From IMG/VR virus record IMGVR_UViG_3300028844_007041, positions 1-60,349 of that record: DNA of 60,349 nt; one strand, written 5' to 3'. Positions 3,249 through 60,349 of this stretch are shown here, one piece after another. The stretch comes from a virus. Position numbers and translations under genes: made by a program. The notes beneath the pieces are model-generated. The model was not told where the DNA came from, made no database searches, and saw only the letters and a program-made list of their open reading frames with translations. Numbering within the stretch: the first letter of the stretch is position 1; every line of letters starts with the position of its first letter.

Positions 3249-4529
3249 TTATAGTTCTGCATCTGCTTCATAAGCAAATGCAAGTCCATATGAAGTTCCT
3301 ACACCATCAGCTTGCCACCCAAGATGAGTTGAACTTGAAGCACTTGAAATCGTTACCGCTCCTCCAGCACTGTTTTTCGTGCCTATAAAAATTACTGTAG
3401 GGTTCACTCTTTTTTCAACCAAAAAAGGTTGTCCAGACCTAATATAACTTGTATGATATCCTGTTGAACAGTATGAATTCTTACCTTTTTCAAAGTATCT
3501 TCGGCATAAATTTAATTCCAAACCATACGGCCGATGCTCAAATGGTGTGGCAACTGGTCCTTCTTCAAGCTGGACTTGAGCTATTGACAAATCAAAAGCG
3601 GAAGTATGAGCCGTAGGTGAAAGAATCTCAATTGCTAGATAACTAGCATTACTTTCTCCTAAAGTTGCTCCTGTCAAAGACGGAATATTAAGTTGAAATG
3701 TAAATTTCTGCCAAGATGTTGTAATTTCTCCAATAGCAGTACTAACATTACTTACAGTACCACCTGCTTGACCTGTAGTTTGTTGTCTGTATCGTATCTG
3801 TAGAGAGTCAGCAGCAATTGTTGAGCTTGACTTTAAATATAGTGATAAAGTTGCAGTTTTTCCAGCAAGCGTTCTCACATTTTCGACATACTGGGCAAAA
3901 ACTATATTGGCAGCTGGGTTAGTTGTTACTGTCCATTTTGCAAAATAATCTGGGTTATAGGGAACGTCAGTTTGACCAGGATTAAAGTTTTCTCTTGTTA
4001 GCGTCCCTGTGAAGTTAGTTCCTACAAATCTCCATCTATCAGCAGAATATGAGTTCGTACTATTACTGATTGTAAATGAAGTGTCTCGTTGCCAAACGTC
4101 AAAGTTTCCATTGATGACCTTATTTCGAAACATGTATGAGGAAGCAGGCGCAACTGTATTTCCCAGAGTCAATGACCCGGCACCTTCTACGCCCGTATGG
4201 CTTGCTAATATATTTCCACCGATTATGATTTCACCACCAGCAGGGTATGTGATGTTCTCAACACTATCTTCAAGAAGTCCAATTGAAGTGTCTAAACTTG
4301 TGATGTCTTGTTCAATTGAATCAAGTTGCGTTTCAATCGGAGTGAAATCAACACCAGCAATTGTACCATCAGAAGCAATGATTGTATTACCATTTTGATC
4401 TTTGATGCTGGCACCTTCTTTCAAATAGTATGAACCATCCTGCTCAATGATGTTTGTATTACCATCTCGAATTGGAAGGTCTACCTTTGCAAAGTTGACC
4501 GCTTTTGCCTTACCAATATATCCACTCAT
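3249..4529 (-). CDS. receptor-binding-type tail protein, 426 aa (paralog 3 of 3)
   Basis: Third member of the tandem set. N-terminus MSGYIGKAKAV is followed by short repeats with coiled-coil character (ETQLDSIEQDITSLD). The shared adhesin module runs from RNKVINGNFDVWQR (about 133) to VATPFEHRPYGLELN and LCRRYF (about 335), then a distinct tip ending DAEL. Its ATG overlaps, as ATGA, the stop of the degenerate companion gene at 4526-4667, so the two were once translationally coupled. Exact role unknown. Confidence 0.7.
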   Translation of the reverse strand: MSGYIGKAKAVNFAKVDLPIRDGNTNIIEQDGSYYLKEGASIKDQNGNTIIASDGTIAGVDFTPIETQLDSIEQDITSLDTSIGLLEDSVENITYPAGGEIIIGGNILASHTGVEGAGSLTLGNTVAPASSYMFRNKVINGNFDVWQRDTSFTISNSTNSYSADRWRFVGTNFTGTLTRENFNPGQTDVPYNPDYFAKWTVTTNPAANIVFAQYVENVRTLAGKTATLSLYLKSSSTIAADSLQIRYRQQTTGQAGGTVSNVSTAIGEITTSWQKFTFQLNIPSLTGATLGESNASYLAIEILSPTAHTSAFDLSIAQVQLEEGPVATPFEHRPYGLELNLCRRYFEKGKNSYCSTGYHTSYIRSGQPFLVEKRVNPTVIFIGTKNSAGGAVTISSASSSTHLGWQADGVGTSYGLAFAYEADAEL

Positions 4530-4667
4530 AGTTCAAGAACCGTTAATGTACAATCAATTGAATTGTTTGCAGATGCACTGACTGTGACTATTTCGTTTTG
4601 TTCATGTGGTATAAACTACTTGACCATCTGTTGTTGCCGTTTCTGCTTTTCTTTTAAATGCTGCCAT
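4526..4667 (-). pseudogene. wreck of a third 114-aa companion protein
   Basis: An ATG at 4667 opens MAAFKRKAETATTDGQVVYT, then a stop appears after 21 codons. In another frame the DNA directly below encodes EQNEIVTVSASANNSIDCTL followed by TVLEL and TGA at 4526. These two pieces match the N-terminal start and C-terminal end of the intact companions at 7674-8018 (C-terminus NDEVIISSTIANSFDAVLSL) and 9613-9957, while the middle two-thirds is missing. The simplest reading is an internal out-of-frame deletion of about 200 bp in a once complete 114-residue gene. The ATGA coupling to the next gene survives. Confidence 0.7.
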
Positions 4668-4676
4668 TTTTTTATA

Positions 4677-5483
4677 TCATCCAAGTGCAATTGAAAATAT
4701 GATTGAATTGAGTGTGTCTTCATCGTCAAAATAGAAGCCACCCTCACCGTCTGTTTTGAGAACTTGCCCTGCGGTTCCATCTGTTATATTTAGATCAGTC
4801 AATGCGTTTACCTCTCTTGCAGCATTGTTTGCAAAGAAGAATGTGCCATCTCCATTTGCAGTCAGAACCTGGTCTTTTGTTGATGAAGAATCTACATCAA
4901 TTAGATTATTCAGGCGATGTGCAGTAGGTGTTGTAAACTTAAATGAGCCATCACCATTTGCTGTAAGATATTGACCGTTGTATGCTAAAGTTGATACATC
5001 AGTTAAACTGGAAAGCTTTGGTTCAATCGGTGTTGTGAACATGAATGTTCCATCACCATTTGCTGTAAGATATTGTCCATAGTCTGATGTTGTTGATACA
5101 TCATTCAGGTTTGATAGTCGATGTTCTGCAAGTGTCTGAAATGTAAATGATCCATCTCCATCTGTATGTAATACTTGACCATCTGTTCCATCAAGAATAC
5201 CAAGATCCATGATTGTATGTATTTCTCTTGCCGCATTGTTTGCGAAAAAGAAAGCACCATCACCAGTTGCAGTTAGCACTTGATTTGCAGTAGCGGTTGA
5301 ATTAACATCCTGCAATGCATTTAAAAACAATAAATTACTTACAGCACCTTCAATTTGACTTGAATCAACATTTGAGCCGAAGTCAACATCATTCAGATAA
5401 ACTTTGTTATCTGTCAAATCCATAACTGCATTTAATCGATTTGCTAATCGTGCAAATTCTCTTGCTTTACTTCTTGTTGCCAT
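4677..5483 (-). CDS. repeat-built tail fibre protein, 268 aa
   Basis: After an N-terminal helix (ATRSKAREFARLANRLNAV) the protein consists of about six units of roughly 38 residues with the core QVLTANGDGTFFFANN or QYLTANGDGSFKF, alternating with LNDV or LTDLNI segments. Such units build slender beta shafts in fibres of aquatic phages. Some units are nearly identical at DNA level, which favours recombination. The C-terminus NSIIFSIALG resembles the ends of two other fibres here. An AAAGG Shine-Dalgarno sequence lies upstream. Likely a minor fibre or adaptor. Confidence 0.65.
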   Translation of the reverse strand: MATRSKAREFARLANRLNAVMDLTDNKVYLNDVDFGSNVDSSQIEGAVSNLLFLNALQDVNSTATANQVLTATGDGAFFFANNAAREIHTIMDLGILDGTDGQVLHTDGDGSFTFQTLAEHRLSNLNDVSTTSDYGQYLTANGDGTFMFTTPIEPKLSSLTDVSTLAYNGQYLTANGDGSFKFTTPTAHRLNNLIDVDSSSTKDQVLTANGDGTFFFANNAAREVNALTDLNITDGTAGQVLKTDGEGGFYFDDEDTLNSIIFSIALG

Positions 5484-34839: not shown

Positions 34840-37800
34840 TTATAGTAATCCAATATGTCTTTTTATTGTTCTCAATTCTTCTTCAAGAAGATCTTGTCTT
34901 ATGTCTTGTTTTTTAATTACTTCAATAAGTAAGGGTATTACCTTTTCATAATTTACTTGATAATGTCCATCTGCATTTTTACGAACTGCCTCAGGTACAA
35001 CTGATTCAAGTTCTTGTGCAATTACACCTACATCATCACCCGTATATCCATGAGGATTATCTTCCTTCCATGTGAAGTGAACACCTCGTAGTCTTTTAAT
35101 CTTATCTTGCGGACGAATATTGTTGATATTCGTTTTAAATCTACCATCAGAAGTTACAAAGCTGATAATATCACCATCAGCAATCACATCACCTTTTGCA
35201 CGAATTGTTCCTGTATCTAAATCAATTGCTGCTTTCGCTGAAGATCCTCCAGCAAATACAATTTGATTTTGGATGTTTTCGGGATTTGTTGATTCACCAT
35301 AACTTTGTAATGAATATGATGGTGAATTAGTTTTGTTCCAATAAATTCCTTCATCTGCTGTTCTTGCTTTTAGCAACCATTTATTTTCATCATTACGATA
35401 CTCGAATAAGTTATCAATGTGACTTTGCTTAACTGTCTTATTTACTAAAATTTCATTAGTATTGATAAGCATATTTTGATCATTATTAAATGAAAAATCA
35501 ATTTGGTCGGCATTGATGAACAACTTACTATTTGGTAATGAATCATTAACACCCCAAGTGTTTGTTCCACTTGTTAATGCACCATAATAAATGTAAGCAT
35601 CTTTTGAATGAGTGTCAACACCATGCCAAACAATATACTTTGTGTTTGGTGTTGGTGGTGTATTTGATGGATTAGGATATTCCCAGTTATCTGATAACTC
35701 ACTATCAGTCAAATGGAATGTTAAGTCACTCTTGATTCCGGGAGGGAAATACATTGGTGTGTAGACTGTTGTATTACCACGAAACTCTGTATTTGAACCT
35801 TCTTTGAATATGATTGTACCTTCTTCAACTGTATGTGAACCTGGACCATAAACTGTTGTACCTTCAATGACAGTATTTGAACCCGGAGCATAGACTGTAT
35901 CACCTTGAACATTTGTAACTGATGTTGTTGTGTAGGTCGTATCACCACCTACAGTAGTTGTTGAGTTTGTTGTATAAGTTGTATCACCATCAACAGTAGT
36001 TGTTGAATCTGTCGTATAAACTGTATCGCCACCAATAGTAGTTGTTGAGTTTGTTGTATAAGTTGTATCACCATCAACAGTAGTTGTTGAAGTCGGTCCA
36101 TAAACAGTATCACCTTCAACATTAGTTGTTGATGTTGTACTGTATGTTGTATCGCCATTTATCTCAGTTGTTGAGTTTGTACTGTATGTTGTCGAACCTT
36201 CAATTGTTGTGTTTGACCCAGGACTATAAACAGTTTCACCATGTATCTCAGTTGTTGAGTTTGTACTATAAGTTGTTGTACCATCAACAGTAGTATTTGA
36301 ACCGGGACCGTATGTTGTCTCACCATGTATCTCAGTTGTTGAATTTGAACTATAGGTTGTCGTACCTTCAACAGTGGTGTTTGAACCTGGTCCATATGTT
36401 GTCTCACCATGAATCTCAGTTGATGAACTAGCACTATAGGTTGTTGTGCCATGTAAGGTTGTATTTGAACCGGGACCGTATGTTGTCTCACCATCAATCA
36501 ATGTGTTTGAAGTCGGTGAGAACCAAACTTCATCATGCATTGAAAGCGGACCATGAAAGTTTGTATTTGATGTTGGTGAGAATACTACTTCAGAATTAAA
36601 TGTTGTATAAGGTCCATTGAATGTTGCGTTTGCAGCAAAGAAAGTATCAACCCAAATGTCAATATGATCTCTCCATGCAGTGTATAGATAATTATCTGAA
36701 GGATCAATATGCTTCAATGTGTATGATACACCATTGAACCCAAGAGATGTGTTACTCGTTGTTGAATCATTTGTGTGCCGCAGAACATTTGTACCTGCAG
36801 TCATTGTTGTCGAAACTACACTTTGATCGAGAAACAAGTCATATACAAAATTGTTTGAATTGTTAAACACATAATTTGTCGAAGGTGTACCAGCATTGTC
36901 AGCCATTGTTAGATGAGCAGACTGATTTTCTCTTCGTATTAATTGCTCAACTCTTTCATTTGCATTATCAAGAACTAACTCATATTCCTCAACATCAACT
37001 GATATTCTTGATTCAGATTTACGATTTGGTATACTTGCATAAAATGTTTTTGAGAAATAATCAGCACCATTTGCAACTGAGATTCGATCAGATACTGTAG
37101 TTTCTGCATCAATTAATACTGCATATCGATTATTAAAATCTTTATTTGATAATGAGATTGTTGATACATCATCTTTTTGAATATCCATTATGTAACGATT
37201 ATATTGATCACCAACTGACATATCAATATTACCTCGAGTCACTCCTTCATCAAGGTTCAGCTGGTAAATATAATTGTTTGCTTGATCAATCTTGTATGTT
37301 GTTTTAGTTGTAGCACCTGCAGGATGAAAGTTAAGTTCTTCCATTCGGTTGTCAACACTAAATGCTTTATATCCTGATTCAATTGAACGATTTAATTCCT
37401 TTTTAATATAATAATTATTTGAACCGTCAATTAAAAATCGTGTATACATTGAAGCATCAAACAGCAACGTTTCTGCTACTTGATTGCCACTATACATCTT
37501 TGAATAAGAAGTTTGATTTGCTCGGTCAAGATGCATATCATATGCATATTCAGTTGGTGTGGCTGTATCTTCCTGTAACTCATATCGACTGCTTGCGGCA
37601 GATTCATTGAGTGTAAGCACACTGTTTTGCTTTTGAGTTGTGAGTTGATTGTATGTTGTTCCCGCAGCAATGTCAAGTTTTGTTTCGTCTTTATATCCAG
37701 ACAACGAATCAATTTTAAATAACGCAAATTGATTTACATCATCCATTGCTAGAATTGAATCTTGACCAGGTGATGTTAATTGCAATAATGATTGTTGAGA

Positions 37801-53417: not shown

Positions 53418-54800
53418 TTAAAATCGATTAAAGCTAGAAATTGCGTTTTTGTAAATGTCAATCGCAGATACAGGTTGCTTTTCCGCATGATAATCTTCAG
53501 TCAATGTTTGAGACTGTTGTTGCTCATCCTCAATCATATCTGACTTCTGCGCACTACTATCATTTTCTGCAAAATAATGTTCTTTTAGAATTTGTACTTT
53601 TTTACCAAACTCTTGCTCATCTTCAAAATCAACAGATTCTGCCAATTCAGAAAGTTGCTCTCGTTCAGCAAGTGACAATTCTTGTGTCGCTTCGAAAATA
53701 ATGTTTTTTCTTTTCTCTTCTTGTAGAGATCTTTTCAATCGCATGTTGCGCTTGAGGTGAGTGTTGATTTGATTTTCAAGTTCAACATTCTTCTCTTCAA
53801 GAGATTCAAGCAAATCTTCTTTTCCTTCCGGAACATCAACATAGTTTTCTACAAACAATTGCTTTAGTCCGGAAATGAAGTTCTCAGTGACTTCGGTACG
53901 AATACCTTTTTCAACAGACAATTCATTTTCTTTCATCCATTCTTCAGCAACATAGGTCAAATACTCATCAATCTTACCTGTAAGATTATCCAATTCCTCA
54001 TGCAATTGTTCTGCATGAGCTTCAACTGCTTCTTTCAAGTTGTTATTGTAGGACTCTTCGAGTTCTTCTTTAACAATCTCGACTTCTTGATCAATTCTGC
54101 GATTGAGTGCAGTTTCAAAAATCAATGCAGCCTTCTCTTTAAATTGTTCGGTTAGAGTATCTTCAGATGCAAAGAGGCTGTTGATGTCTTCCATCATTTC
54201 TTCTTTTGCCTTCTTTTTATCTTCTTCTCTTTTGGCTTTCTTTGCTTCATCAAGGTTTTCCTCGTCATCATCATCATCATCATCTTTTTTCTTCTTCTTC
54301 TTATCATCGTCTTCCTCATCATCATCATCTTTTGCTTCCGCTAGATCTTCTTCATCATCTTTCTTTGCCTTTTTCTTTTTTGCCTCATCAAGATCTTCAT
54401 CATCATCATCATCATCGTCATCATCTTTCTTCTTTTTCTTATCGTCTTCTTCCTCATCATCATCATCTTTTGCTTCAGCCAAATCTTTTTCTTTATCTTC
54501 TTCTCTCTTGGCTTTTCGCTTCTTTGCTTCTTCAACCATATCGTCATTCATTTCATCAGCAAGCATGTTTACCAATGATGATACAGTTGTCTTATCATCG
54601 ATGCTAACAGAAGTTGCGGTAGCTTTTGAACCAACGGCAGACAGAATTTTCTTTACAAGTGCATCTGTGCTTCCACCATCAATCTTGGCTTTGACTTCCT
54701 CAATACTTCCAAGAGGTGTTGACTTTGAAAAATCAGCGTCTCCCGGAAGTTCTTTTTTCAAGACCTCCATTACTTTTTTTTCAATTTCTGGTTTAGTCAT
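53418..54800 (-). CDS. gp22: prohead scaffold (core) protein gp22
   Basis: Assigned gp22 by position between gp21 and gp23 and by its long charged coiled coil (EKAALIFETALNRRIDQEVE, then LEELDNLTG-type helices to about residue 440). It is much longer than T4 gp22 (460 versus 269) because residues about 90-205 are an Asp/Glu/Lys low-complexity insert with two 46-residue repeats starting DLAEAKDDDD. The N-terminal 85 residues form a small separate domain. Scaffold proteins are degraded by gp21 before packaging. An exact TATAAATA lies 49 nt upstream. Confidence 0.8.
   Translation of the reverse strand: MTKPEIEKKVMEVLKKELPGDADFSKSTPLGSIEEVKAKIDGGSTDALVKKILSAVGSKATATSVSIDDKTTVSSLVNMLADEMNDDMVEEAKKRKAKREEDKEKDLAEAKDDDDEEEDDKKKKKDDDDDDDDDEDLDEAKKKKAKKDDEEDLAEAKDDDDEEDDDKKKKKKDDDDDDDEENLDEAKKAKREEDKKKAKEEMMEDINSLFASEDTLTEQFKEKAALIFETALNRRIDQEVEIVKEELEESYNNNLKEAVEAHAEQLHEELDNLTGKIDEYLTYVAEEWMKENELSVEKGIRTEVTENFISGLKQLFVENYVDVPEGKEDLLESLEEKNVELENQINTHLKRNMRLKRSLQEEKRKNIIFEATQELSLAEREQLSELAESVDFEDEQEFGKKVQILKEHYFAENDSSAQKSDMIEDEQQQSQTLTEDYHAEKQPVSAIDIYKNAISSFNRF
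54210..54485 (-). repeat. Asp/Lys low-complexity repeat inside gp22
   Basis: Two 138-nt units plus a partial third encode DLAEAKDDDDEEEDDKKKKK, then a run of 7-9 Asp and E-D-L-D-E-A-K-K. The GAT/GAC and AAG/AAA runs (plus strand: atcatcatc, ttcttcttc) are prone to slippage, and the two units already differ in Asp and Lys run lengths. Confidence 0.85.
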
Positions 54801-57999: not shown

Positions 58000-58159
58000 C
58001 TTTGGGTGCTTGGTTAAAAAGTGTTTGTGACAATTCTTCCTTTCTTTGTTCTAGCCGGTCATAAATTTTGTTTGCAATGATATTATCAAAATTTTCTTTG
58101 GTACCAAGCATGTTACCATCATTTACATTTTTGATTAGATTTTTAATTTCGTCTTCCAT
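57977..58159 (-). CDS. gp67: prohead core protein gp67-like, 60 aa
   Basis: Small acidic helical protein directly below the portal gene, as gene 67 is in T4. EIKNLIKNVNDGNMLGTKEN, then FDNIIANKIYDRLEQRKEEL, mirrors the T4 gp67 pattern of an N-terminal LI-x-x-(I/V)-x-x-x-D helix, a second I-x-x-(K/R)-x-x-D-x-(I/L)-x-x-x-K/R helix and an acidic tail (here PKDDNENEE). T4 gp67 is 80 residues, ending in a longer acidic run. The ATG overlaps the portal stop as TAATG and has a strong SD. Confidence 0.7.
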   Translation of the reverse strand: MEDEIKNLIKNVNDGNMLGTKENFDNIIANKIYDRLEQRKEELSQTLFNQAPKDDNENEE

Positions 58160-60349
58160 TATACACCTCCTATATTATCTACAGGTGTTGAGCCGCCGGC
58201 ACCACCACTGGCGCCACCTCCTCCACCACCTAAGTCATTGACCATTCCATCACCTGGTGTTGGTCCAACGCCAGTATCGGCTCCGCCCATACCGCCACCG
58301 AACAAGTCACCACCCATTCCTCCTCCGCCCATTCCACCTGCGCCCATGCCGAAGCCAGGCTCACCTTCTTGAGGTGCAAATCGTGGATCATATTTCTCCT
58401 CACTAATCTCTTCTTCAATCTTTTCAATCTCTTCATCTGTCATGAACAGAATGTTTTTGCGAATATAGTTTGCAGAGAAATATTTGCCACGATATTCTTC
58501 AGCATCACGAAGAGCATTCATTTTTTCAGTGAGAACCTCAAGGCTTTTGAGTGCATTGAAATTGCTGTCTTGGTCATATGTGAATTGAATTTGATCTTTA
58601 ATATCATCCCATTGTTTAAGTGAAATGATATTCTTTAAAATTAATTGTTTCTTGAGAAGATCCACAAACAAGTTTGAGAAACGTGAACGCAAACGTTCAA
58701 CGAATCTTAGAAACTTATATTCTTCTCGACTAATCTCACTGGCACGGCCAAGTGAGAACCCGCTATCGGGCTGCATTCTTGAAATTGGTACATTTAATGA
58801 ACGGAACAATTGACGTTGAAAGTATTCAAGTTCGTCAAGTTGTGTGAAACCACCTTCGTCTCCTGACAAGGTATCAATTTCGGTGGTTGCGGAATTCATC
58901 ACAAAAATACCAGAAGAAAGAGCAAAATTATGATAATCGTGATATTGATGTTCACCATCAATTGTCAATGTTCCAACATCCATACGGTCTGTTCGACGAA
59001 CAACTTTGACAACTGTATGATTTTGAGCAACAGTAGCCTTTTCCTTTCTCTTCTGAACAATTAGATTCTCATCACAGTTGCGAATGATCAGTTCTGAGAT
59101 TGAATTGTAGCCGTGTGAAGAAATGAATTTTCTCACAGTTTCGAGAGAAAGTTGAGAGTATTCTTGTTGAATTGCAACAATCAAAGCTTGATTTGAAACT
59201 CTTGGATTCGCAGAAACTTCTTGTCGAACAATCTCAATAATTTTTGAAAGTTGAATGAATTTATAATATTTTTCAAAGGCTCTTTGCTTTGAGCCAGCGT
59301 CATGTTTTGCACATTCTTTTTGGTATTGCTCAGGATCATTTTCTTTCAACCAAGCAAGTTTTTCTGCTGCGGTCTTTGAACCATTCGCTCCTTGCGTTGC
59401 TCGTTTTGGATACCACTTGTTCAACCATTCTTCGTTAGTCATTGTTTTGCGGTCATCTGCTCTCATCTGACGAACAATTTCACGACCAGCTTCTAAACCT
59501 TTCCAAACTGCTTCACATGTTTGATTGAACGTTGAAATTTCCTTTCTTCTTTTTTCTCCTGCTTCTGTTTGAAAAAATGTTTTTCCCGAAATTGAAAGAT
59601 TTTTCTTCCATGTTTTCACATCAGCAACTTCCCAATTTCTTTTACCCAATTTAGAATGCAATTCAATATGTTCATTTCGATCCATAATCTTCAAATTACT
59701 TGGTGTATTATTGAAACGGTCCAAGTCAATATGATGAATCACTTCTGTTTTTTCTTGAGGTCGATTTATGAATTCACTGACGGCACGATGAACAAATTCA
59801 TATTTCTCAGTATCATTGTGTTGAACTTGTAGGTATTCCTTTGTCTGATTGTTTGGACTTACCGCTTTCATTTTTGTGTTGAATGGCATCAATGAAGAAC
59901 CTTCTGTCAAATTCGAAGCCTCAATTCTTTCACCATTACGAAGAATGAACTTGTGGTCTGGAGTTGCAGTGATGATTTCTCCATTATCGAGATGAACATC
60001 TAACACTTCAGCATCGTTTCTTGTGACGCCTGCCCAAGAAATCAAACCAGGAACCACATGACCCTTTTGATCTACAGAATAGGTCCAGTTTTCTTTTCCT
60101 GCCTTGTGTTCAACAATCAATTGTCCAAGTTCAACATTCCTACCATCTAACAGAGAAATTTTTGTCGATAAATCAAAACAACCATTTCTCCTGGGCATCC
60201 AATAATCTTCAAGCATTGTTTGGAATTTGCGATCATCTCGCAACATTCCAGTTTTACTATCGTACACCATTTTGTTACGATATTGATCTTTAAGTGTCTG
60301 CAAATATTGTCTTGCTTTTGCAGCGGGTAAGTTTCCTACATCAACATAA
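58159..60349 (-). CDS. gp20: portal protein gp20, partial, interrupted by an intein
   Basis: C-terminal part of the T4-type portal vertex protein. The reading frame runs off the right edge: upstream of the TTG (Leu) at 60303 it continues YVDVGNLPAAKARQY, a signature of gp20. Then comes QYRNKMVYDSKTGMLRDDRK and MLEDYWMPRRNG, where a 429-residue intein interrupts. The extein resumes at SATTEIDTLSGDEGG, with NVPISRMQ and EEYRGKYFSANYIRKNILFM. The portal ends in a long Gly/Met-rich tail (GMGAGGMGGGGMGGDLFGGG) and PVDNIGGV. Portals form the dodecameric packaging vertex. Splicing would be needed for function. Confidence 0.93.
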   Translation of the reverse strand, partial: YVDVGNLPAAKARQYLQTLKDQYRNKMVYDSKTGMLRDDRKFQTMLEDYWMPRRNGCFDLSTKISLLDGRNVELGQLIVEHKAGKENWTYSVDQKGHVVPGLISWAGVTRNDAEVLDVHLDNGEIITATPDHKFILRNGERIEASNLTEGSSLMPFNTKMKAVSPNNQTKEYLQVQHNDTEKYEFVHRAVSEFINRPQEKTEVIHHIDLDRFNNTPSNLKIMDRNEHIELHSKLGKRNWEVADVKTWKKNLSISGKTFFQTEAGEKRRKEISTFNQTCEAVWKGLEAGREIVRQMRADDRKTMTNEEWLNKWYPKRATQGANGSKTAAEKLAWLKENDPEQYQKECAKHDAGSKQRAFEKYYKFIQLSKIIEIVRQEVSANPRVSNQALIVAIQQEYSQLSLETVRKFISSHGYNSISELIIRNCDENLIVQKRKEKATVAQNHTVVKVVRRTDRMDVGTLTIDGEHQYHDYHNFALSSGIFVMNSATTEIDTLSGDEGGFTQLDELEYFQRQLFRSLNVPISRMQPDSGFSLGRASEISREEYKFLRFVERLRSRFSNLFVDLLKKQLILKNIISLKQWDDIKDQIQFTYDQDSNFNALKSLEVLTEKMNALRDAEEYRGKYFSANYIRKNILFMTDEEIEKIEEEISEEKYDPRFAPQEGEPGFGMGAGGMGGGGMGGDLFGGGMGGADTGVGPTPGDGMVNDLGGGGGGASGGAGGSTPVDNIGGV
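58164..58171 (-). promoter_or_regulatory. strong Shine-Dalgarno for gp67
   Basis: AGGAGGTG lies 4 nt before the gp67 ATG, inside the last codons of the portal gene. It is the best SD seen in the window and suggests that gp67 is made in larger amounts than the portal protein. Confidence 0.8.
58894..60180 (-). mobile_element. HNH-endonuclease intein in the portal gene, 429 aa
   Basis: The intein begins at Cys (codon 60180-60178) with CFDLSTKISLLDGR (block A), followed by block B with ATPDHKF (T-x-x-H) at about residue 75 of the intein. An HNH homing endonuclease follows (VIHHIDLDRFNNTPSNLKIM, DRNEHIELH; about 59645-59760), then a helical DNA-binding-like region (VSNQALIVAIQQEYSQLSLE). It ends with HQYHDYHNFALSSGIFVMN, Asn codon 58896-58894, and Ser as +1 residue. 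The penultimate residue is Met instead of the usual His. Precise removal restores a continuous gp20 sequence, which supports the boundaries. Confidence 0.92.

Follow-up and report, generated by a model that had tools for sequence, protein, structure and literature searches.

Replication and packaging enzymes are the main hosts of inteins. The portal is the ring that admits DNA to the phage head. Portal inteins as such are already known, and the accessible text of Kelley et al. (2016; PMC5050341) lists six of them in C1 mycobacteriophages; the sequence-only reading of the locus described here had set a portal intein apart from the usual phage inteins of polymerases, terminases and nucleotide-metabolism enzymes, but it is not the first of its kind. 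The C1 inteins share the phage portal as host gene with this locus, and according to that text the penultimate His is frequently missing from class 1 inteins of mycobacteriophages too, but the C1 inteins belong to another phage group and presumably to another portal family, and the same text reports no multi-site hotspot in a portal. It also describes mycobacteriophage TerL inteins at five sites in TerL1, a packaging protein invaded at several sites as the portal is here. In crAss-like phages two Hint-Hop inteins occur in one TerL (PMC7886860), so that up to two per gene compare with three in the portal family. The host protein of these TerL systems is an ATPase, whereas the portal family has nearly all of its sites within ~42 residues. 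The haloarchaeal MCM inteins a-d (PMC10643990) resemble the portal family in their four neighbouring sites, two of them lining the DNA channel, and in their double-intein genes, mini-inteins and interspecies transfer. However, their host is an archaeal helicase and not a virion protein, and the portal family has more sites and inter-intein exteins down to 10 residues. Our searches of the open-access literature uncovered no report of inteins in the T4-type gp20, and the T4-type portal intein family and its hotspot with stacked inteins are apparently undescribed.

The nearest non-portal relatives of the intein are the NCBIfam family NF052663 (RtcB_rel_intein2), the intein of phage SP-15 and an intein of an Anaerolineae genome (L220), all with the same Hint and HNH layout. 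The SP-15 and L220 inteins show ~28-31% identity and occupy other host genes (a terminase-like extein in SP-15 and a dCTP-deaminase-like one in L220, both assigned by eye). The Npu and Ssp DnaE inteins are naturally split and have no nuclease, unlike the intein studied here. They provide the closest solved Hint fold (PDB 4kl5, 1zd7).

The DNA analysed (the window) comprises 60,349 nt of IMG/VR record IMGVR_UViG_3300028844_007041, from an uncultivated T4-like phage. Its single portal gene very probably carries a class 1 HNH homing intein that splices out and homes, and that is one of a family targeting specifically the clip and channel loops of the portal. The ORF at 58159-60348 on the minus strand contains 729 codons without a stop, is open at the window edge and encodes the later portion of a T4-type portal protein (gp20), the opening portion of the gene being past base 60349. 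Since the window stops inside the gene, the TTG "start" of this ORF was rejected as the true gene start. Portal_T4 (PF07230) matches both exteins (E 6.5e-74, 249.6 bits, cut-off 22.9), which places the protein among T4-type portals and agrees with its earlier identification as gp20. Downstream of the portal, the T4 gene order is retained, with a prohead protease (Peptidase_S77), a scaffold (T4_CASP) and Gp23. The features of the interrupted gene are listed in Table 1.

Table 1. Features of the interrupted portal gene, with positions in the window.
Feature	Position	Strand	Description	Evidence
N-extein	60181..60348	-	56 residues preceding the intein, YVDVGN...PRRNG	PF07230; phmmer to T4 gp20 286-341
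Intein	58894..60180	-	429 aa, C1...M428 N429; ORF residues 57-485	Lies between residues equal to T4 gp20 G341 and K342
N-terminal Hint half	59884..60180	-	Intein residues 1-99; nucleophile C1; block B TPDH (T73-H76)	PF14890; TIGR01445; invariant columns C1/T73/H76; AF2 pLDDT 71-92; Foldseek match to 4kl5
HNH endonuclease core	59668..59796	-	Intein residues 129-171, VIHHIDLDRFNNTPSNL	HNH_3; phrog_21964; invariant residues
Helix-turn-helix-like segment	59101..59226	-	Intein residues 319-360; presumed DNA recognition	HTH_Tnp_Tc3_2, E 0.0017 (below cut-off); helical in AF2 model
C-terminal Hint half	58894..59025	-	Intein residues 386-429; block F D401, H417; block G M428 (not His), N429	PF14890 to ORF residue 483; conserved columns
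C-extein	58159..58893	-	Ser+1 (codon TCC, 58891-58893) and rest of portal, 244 residues in all; Gly-rich tail; stop	PF07230; phrog_213; L026 identical over 244 aa

Three other loci in the window were recorded. The scaffolding protein gene (T4_CASP; 53418-54800, minus strand) contains a 138-bp near-tandem repeat encoding long Asp/Glu and Lys runs, a 42/84-bp repeat array (35787-36511, minus strand) lies within a 2018-aa protein of tail fibre type ending in a Peptidase_S74 chaperone, and a T4 RNA ligase 1-like gene (PF09511; 48849-49916, plus strand) has the opposite orientation to the structural genes.

Between the two portal halves, Intein_splicing (PF14890) scores 39.7 bits against a cut-off of 35.8, and the NCBIfam model TIGR01445 (intein_Nterm) scores 35.0 against 24.5. 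The insertion runs from CFDLSTKI to HDYHNFALSSGIFVMN, ending in IFVMN, and is followed by Ser. Its Cys at position 1, block B TxxH and terminal Asn before Ser+1 are those of a class 1 intein, while the penultimate His that is usual but not obligatory in this class is replaced by Met428. The nuclease region matches phrog_21964 in PHROGs (E 1.9e-13) and HNH_3 in Pfam at 23.5 bits, slightly under the cut-off of 24.8, and the HNH motif residues H149, H150, N158, N162, H171 and H175 are invariant among full-length relatives. The AF2 model of the intein has a mean pLDDT of 65, with the Hint halves mostly at 70-92 and the nuclease region at low confidence. Foldseek with this model returns intein folds, the top match being the Npu DnaE intein (E 5.6e-7), as expected of a Hint fold. 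At the sequence level, the element is confirmed as a class 1 intein with a Hint splicing domain and an HNH endonuclease, seamless within a T4-type portal gene. The full-length 429-residue HNH intein that the sequence-only reading had placed at 58894-60180 is thus borne out by the open frame, PF14890, TIGR01445 and phrog_21964.

The junction PRRNG/SATTEIDTLSG aligns to the contiguous RRDG/KAVTEVDTL of T4 gp20 (341/342), and the site is uninterrupted in more than 20 related IMG/VR portals, so the conserved insertion point proposed earlier also holds. In the cryo-EM structure of T4 gp20, R338 and K342 are part of the inner loop of the clip and face the DNA channel (PMC4493910). One intein-free relative, L026, has exteins that are 100% identical at the protein level (56 and 244 residues) and DNA that is 98.6% identical over 6.7 kb; judged by this similarity, it is the same phage species as the window phage. 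The intein is therefore a polymorphic insertion.

We compared the divergence of the intein with that of its exteins. The inteins of L002, L003 and L004 are 93-94% identical to that of the window, compared to 82% for the N-extein and 66-88% for the C-extein (88% over 48 residues). At the DNA level, the window and L004 are 91.5% identical in the intein versus 76% and 73% in the flanks, and dS is 0.36 in the intein versus 2.5 or saturated in the exteins. Because the intein is far less diverged than the exteins, it has a younger common ancestor than the host portals. The dN/dS of the HNH region is 0.07 (L004) and 0.04 (L002), and that of the Hint halves against relatives is 0 to 0.03, indicating that both functions are maintained. 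The greater closeness of the intein across phage species than of the flanking portal, combined with strong purifying selection on the nuclease, points to a mobile homing element. As expected of an intein-borne homing endonuclease, there are empty alleles (L026 and others) and transfer between species, visible as discordance of intein and exteins.

The Ser+1 codon is TCC in the window, TCN in the intein-bearing L002 and L004, and AGT in the closest intein-free relatives. Going from Ser AGY to TCN takes two changes, and such a switch is a natural trace of co-conversion. Upstream of the site, five of the six differences from L026 fall within 25 nt (P 0.0003). This cluster was rejected as proof of co-conversion, since most of its letters are common to the intein-free L009-L011, and the +1 codon alone therefore counts as a good trace. 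The pair L005 and L006 is a second case, with 99.5% identity in the site-341 intein versus 91% in the C-extein; a second intein was either gained or retained by L006. Mini-inteins without a nuclease are also present at site 341. The horizontal transfer, the co-conversion trace, the conserved nuclease and the decay to mini-inteins form the pattern of a selfish homing element.

To delimit the family, IMG/VR was scanned twice with intein alignments, starting from portal inteins and keeping the best 80 loci each, and an HMM-based census followed. Among the best 80 loci of each scan, there are at least 141 complete inteins in 124 distinct portal genes, and no complete family member was found in a gene without a portal match. 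Given this starting point and the limit of 80 loci per scan, restriction to portals holds for close relatives, not for all; SP-15 and L220 have distant ones in other genes. Partial extra Hint blocks in L123, L161, L195/L196 and L215 were left out of the counts; these additional Hint-like blocks, which have poorly defined ends and share the portal genes with the counted inteins, may represent another intein type or have another first residue. The DNA pattern EDYWxPRRxG-Cys occurs in 30 IMG/VR stretches, all of which except L037 run into this intein, some being truncated where the contig stops. In L037, PRREG is followed by a native Cys without any intein, so the DNA pattern alone was rejected as proof of an intein.

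The T4 gp20 clip spans residues 279-358, the channel loop 350-359 and the tunnel loop 374-398 (PMC4493910). At least 138 of the 141 inteins lie between positions 316 and 358 (about 40-42 residues), with 15 at 316/317, 4 at 319-320, 31 at 328/329, 2 at 330-333, 10 at 337-340, 19 at 341/342, 52 at 353/354, 4 at 354/355 and 2 at 357/358; 1 is at 393/394, and 1 incomplete census row at a 353-type motif has no placement by alignment. Nearly all inteins are therefore in the clip, many of them in or beside the loops lining the DNA path. The 484-kb uncultured phage LR756508.1 (L032) carries a relative in the portal tunnel loop (T4 393/394; ORF ~3700-5200), outside the clip hotspot. Multiple inteins occur in 15 of the 124 genes, 13 with two and 2 with three, and the intervening exteins are 10-39 residues long. 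The three inteins of L046 (562-2805) are at T4 328/329, 341/342 and 353/354, separated by exteins of 13 and 12 residues, and those of L122 are at 328/329, 339/340 and 354/355, separated by 11 and 15 residues. The records of L051 (164 kb) and L138 (141 kb) contain 6 and 8 intein-splicing matches in all, several outside the portal, which suggests that these phages are intein-rich.

On a tree of 84 inteins, 8 changes suffice to explain the six site classes, versus 48 in shuffles, and the site-341 inteins form one clade (SH-aLRT 89) adjoining the inteins at 339/340. We infer a history of rare shifts between neighbouring sites, followed by homing within a site. No match to the HNH motif used is present in 19 of the 141 inteins, and 14 of the 141 are shorter than 260 aa; an absent HNH and a short length are the usual decay to putative mini-inteins. 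C1, TxxH and the terminal Asn are present in 141 of 141 relatives, and the +1 residue is S in 135, T in 5 and C in 1, but the census required Cys at position 1 and N followed by S, T or C, so the counts for these residues are not independent. The penultimate residue is Lys in 77 inteins, Met in 19 (all of the site-341 inteins), Cys in 16 and His in 5. A tblastn search of 50,697 phage records with the window intein and two other members found none of this family at the clip sites of T4-type portals, the only T4-type portal with a relative being that of LR756508.1 at 393/394, and one scan of cellular genomes (84,980 species) gave a single distant match, the dCTP-deaminase-like gene of L220. It is quite possible, and we propose it tentatively, that the clip of T4-type portals is a dedicated niche of one intein family, with separate homing lineages for ~10 neighbouring sites in DNA-contacting loops and stacks of two or three inteins separated by exteins of 10-39 residues, and that the near-complete loss of the penultimate His is an adaptation to fast or ordered splicing.

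In 8 intein-bearing records (74-298 kb, most 140-298 kb, possibly incomplete), no second portal gene was found, and each portal match is a fragment of the same interrupted gene. Because these genomes show no second portal gene, splicing presumably must occur, and the earlier proposal that head assembly depends on it is reasonable. A 429-aa insertion at the channel entrance in all twelve subunits would probably not be tolerated. According to PMC5050341, some phage class 1 inteins have another residue in place of the penultimate His, and the loss of this His slows or alters splicing in some inteins, while a mycobacteriophage class 1 intein with a penultimate Gly splices and becomes slower when given His. 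The absent penultimate His is therefore no bar to splicing. We infer splicing, cleavage and homing activity for the window intein as follows. The portal gene would be translated as one precursor, from which the Hint domain would excise itself through an N-S shift at C1, transesterification to Ser+1 and cyclisation of Asn429, with the block F His presumably assisting in the last step, as Met occupies the penultimate position. PRRNG would thereby be joined to SATTEID, and normal gp20 would form the dodecamer. When two phages share a cell, the HNH nuclease would cut the intein-free portal gene and repair would copy the intein in. The clip and channel loops of the portal are the speciality of its family, in which almost every insertion site has a lineage of its own.

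The sequence-only reading had further suggested a timing gate, in which conditional (slow or triggered) portal splicing delays head assembly to the benefit of the phage. With one portal gene, splicing must precede portal function, the penultimate Met is invariant in 19 of 19 site-341 inteins, and penultimate residues tune the splicing rate in a mycobacteriophage intein (PMC5050341). However, the invariant Met is equally explained by the single-clade origin of the site-341 inteins, and L026 belongs to the same species and has no intein. Among the matches listed, 3 of 112 assessable portals (about 3%) carry such an intein, the sample being one portal type with the pattern Y[IV]DVGNLPK upstream of all clip sites, and the transfer and decay pattern is that of a parasite. 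The suggestion finds no support and is not needed to explain the data, and we consider it improbable.

A splicing-defective or decaying insertion, or a defective genome, is more improbable still: the penultimate residue is not His, but the natural Npu and Ssp DnaE inteins lack it as well, the dN/dS in the Hint halves is 0 to 0.03, and the block F and G motif HDYHNFALSSGIFVMN is kept in divergent relatives. That the extra residues are a permanent, unremoved gp20 domain has a negligible probability, since the open frame without a stop throughout would fit it but the Hint and HNH homology and the seamless empty sites in relatives argue against it, and twelve 429-aa domains in this inner loop of the clip, within the DNA channel, would presumably prevent assembly.

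In annotation, intein-bearing portals are at risk of being broken up or given a wrong name, and the diversity of T4-like phages is commonly surveyed with gp20 as a marker gene. The repeated invasion of an essential virion protein at neighbouring DNA-channel sites suggests that the places where inteins settle can be determined by how conserved the target DNA is rather than by enzyme chemistry. The triple-intein genes are natural tests of how mis-splicing is avoided and of mutual homing interference among neighbouring related inteins. If the clip is indeed a dedicated niche of this family, some phages would have to carry out two or three splicing events within ~40 residues in each of the twelve portal subunits.
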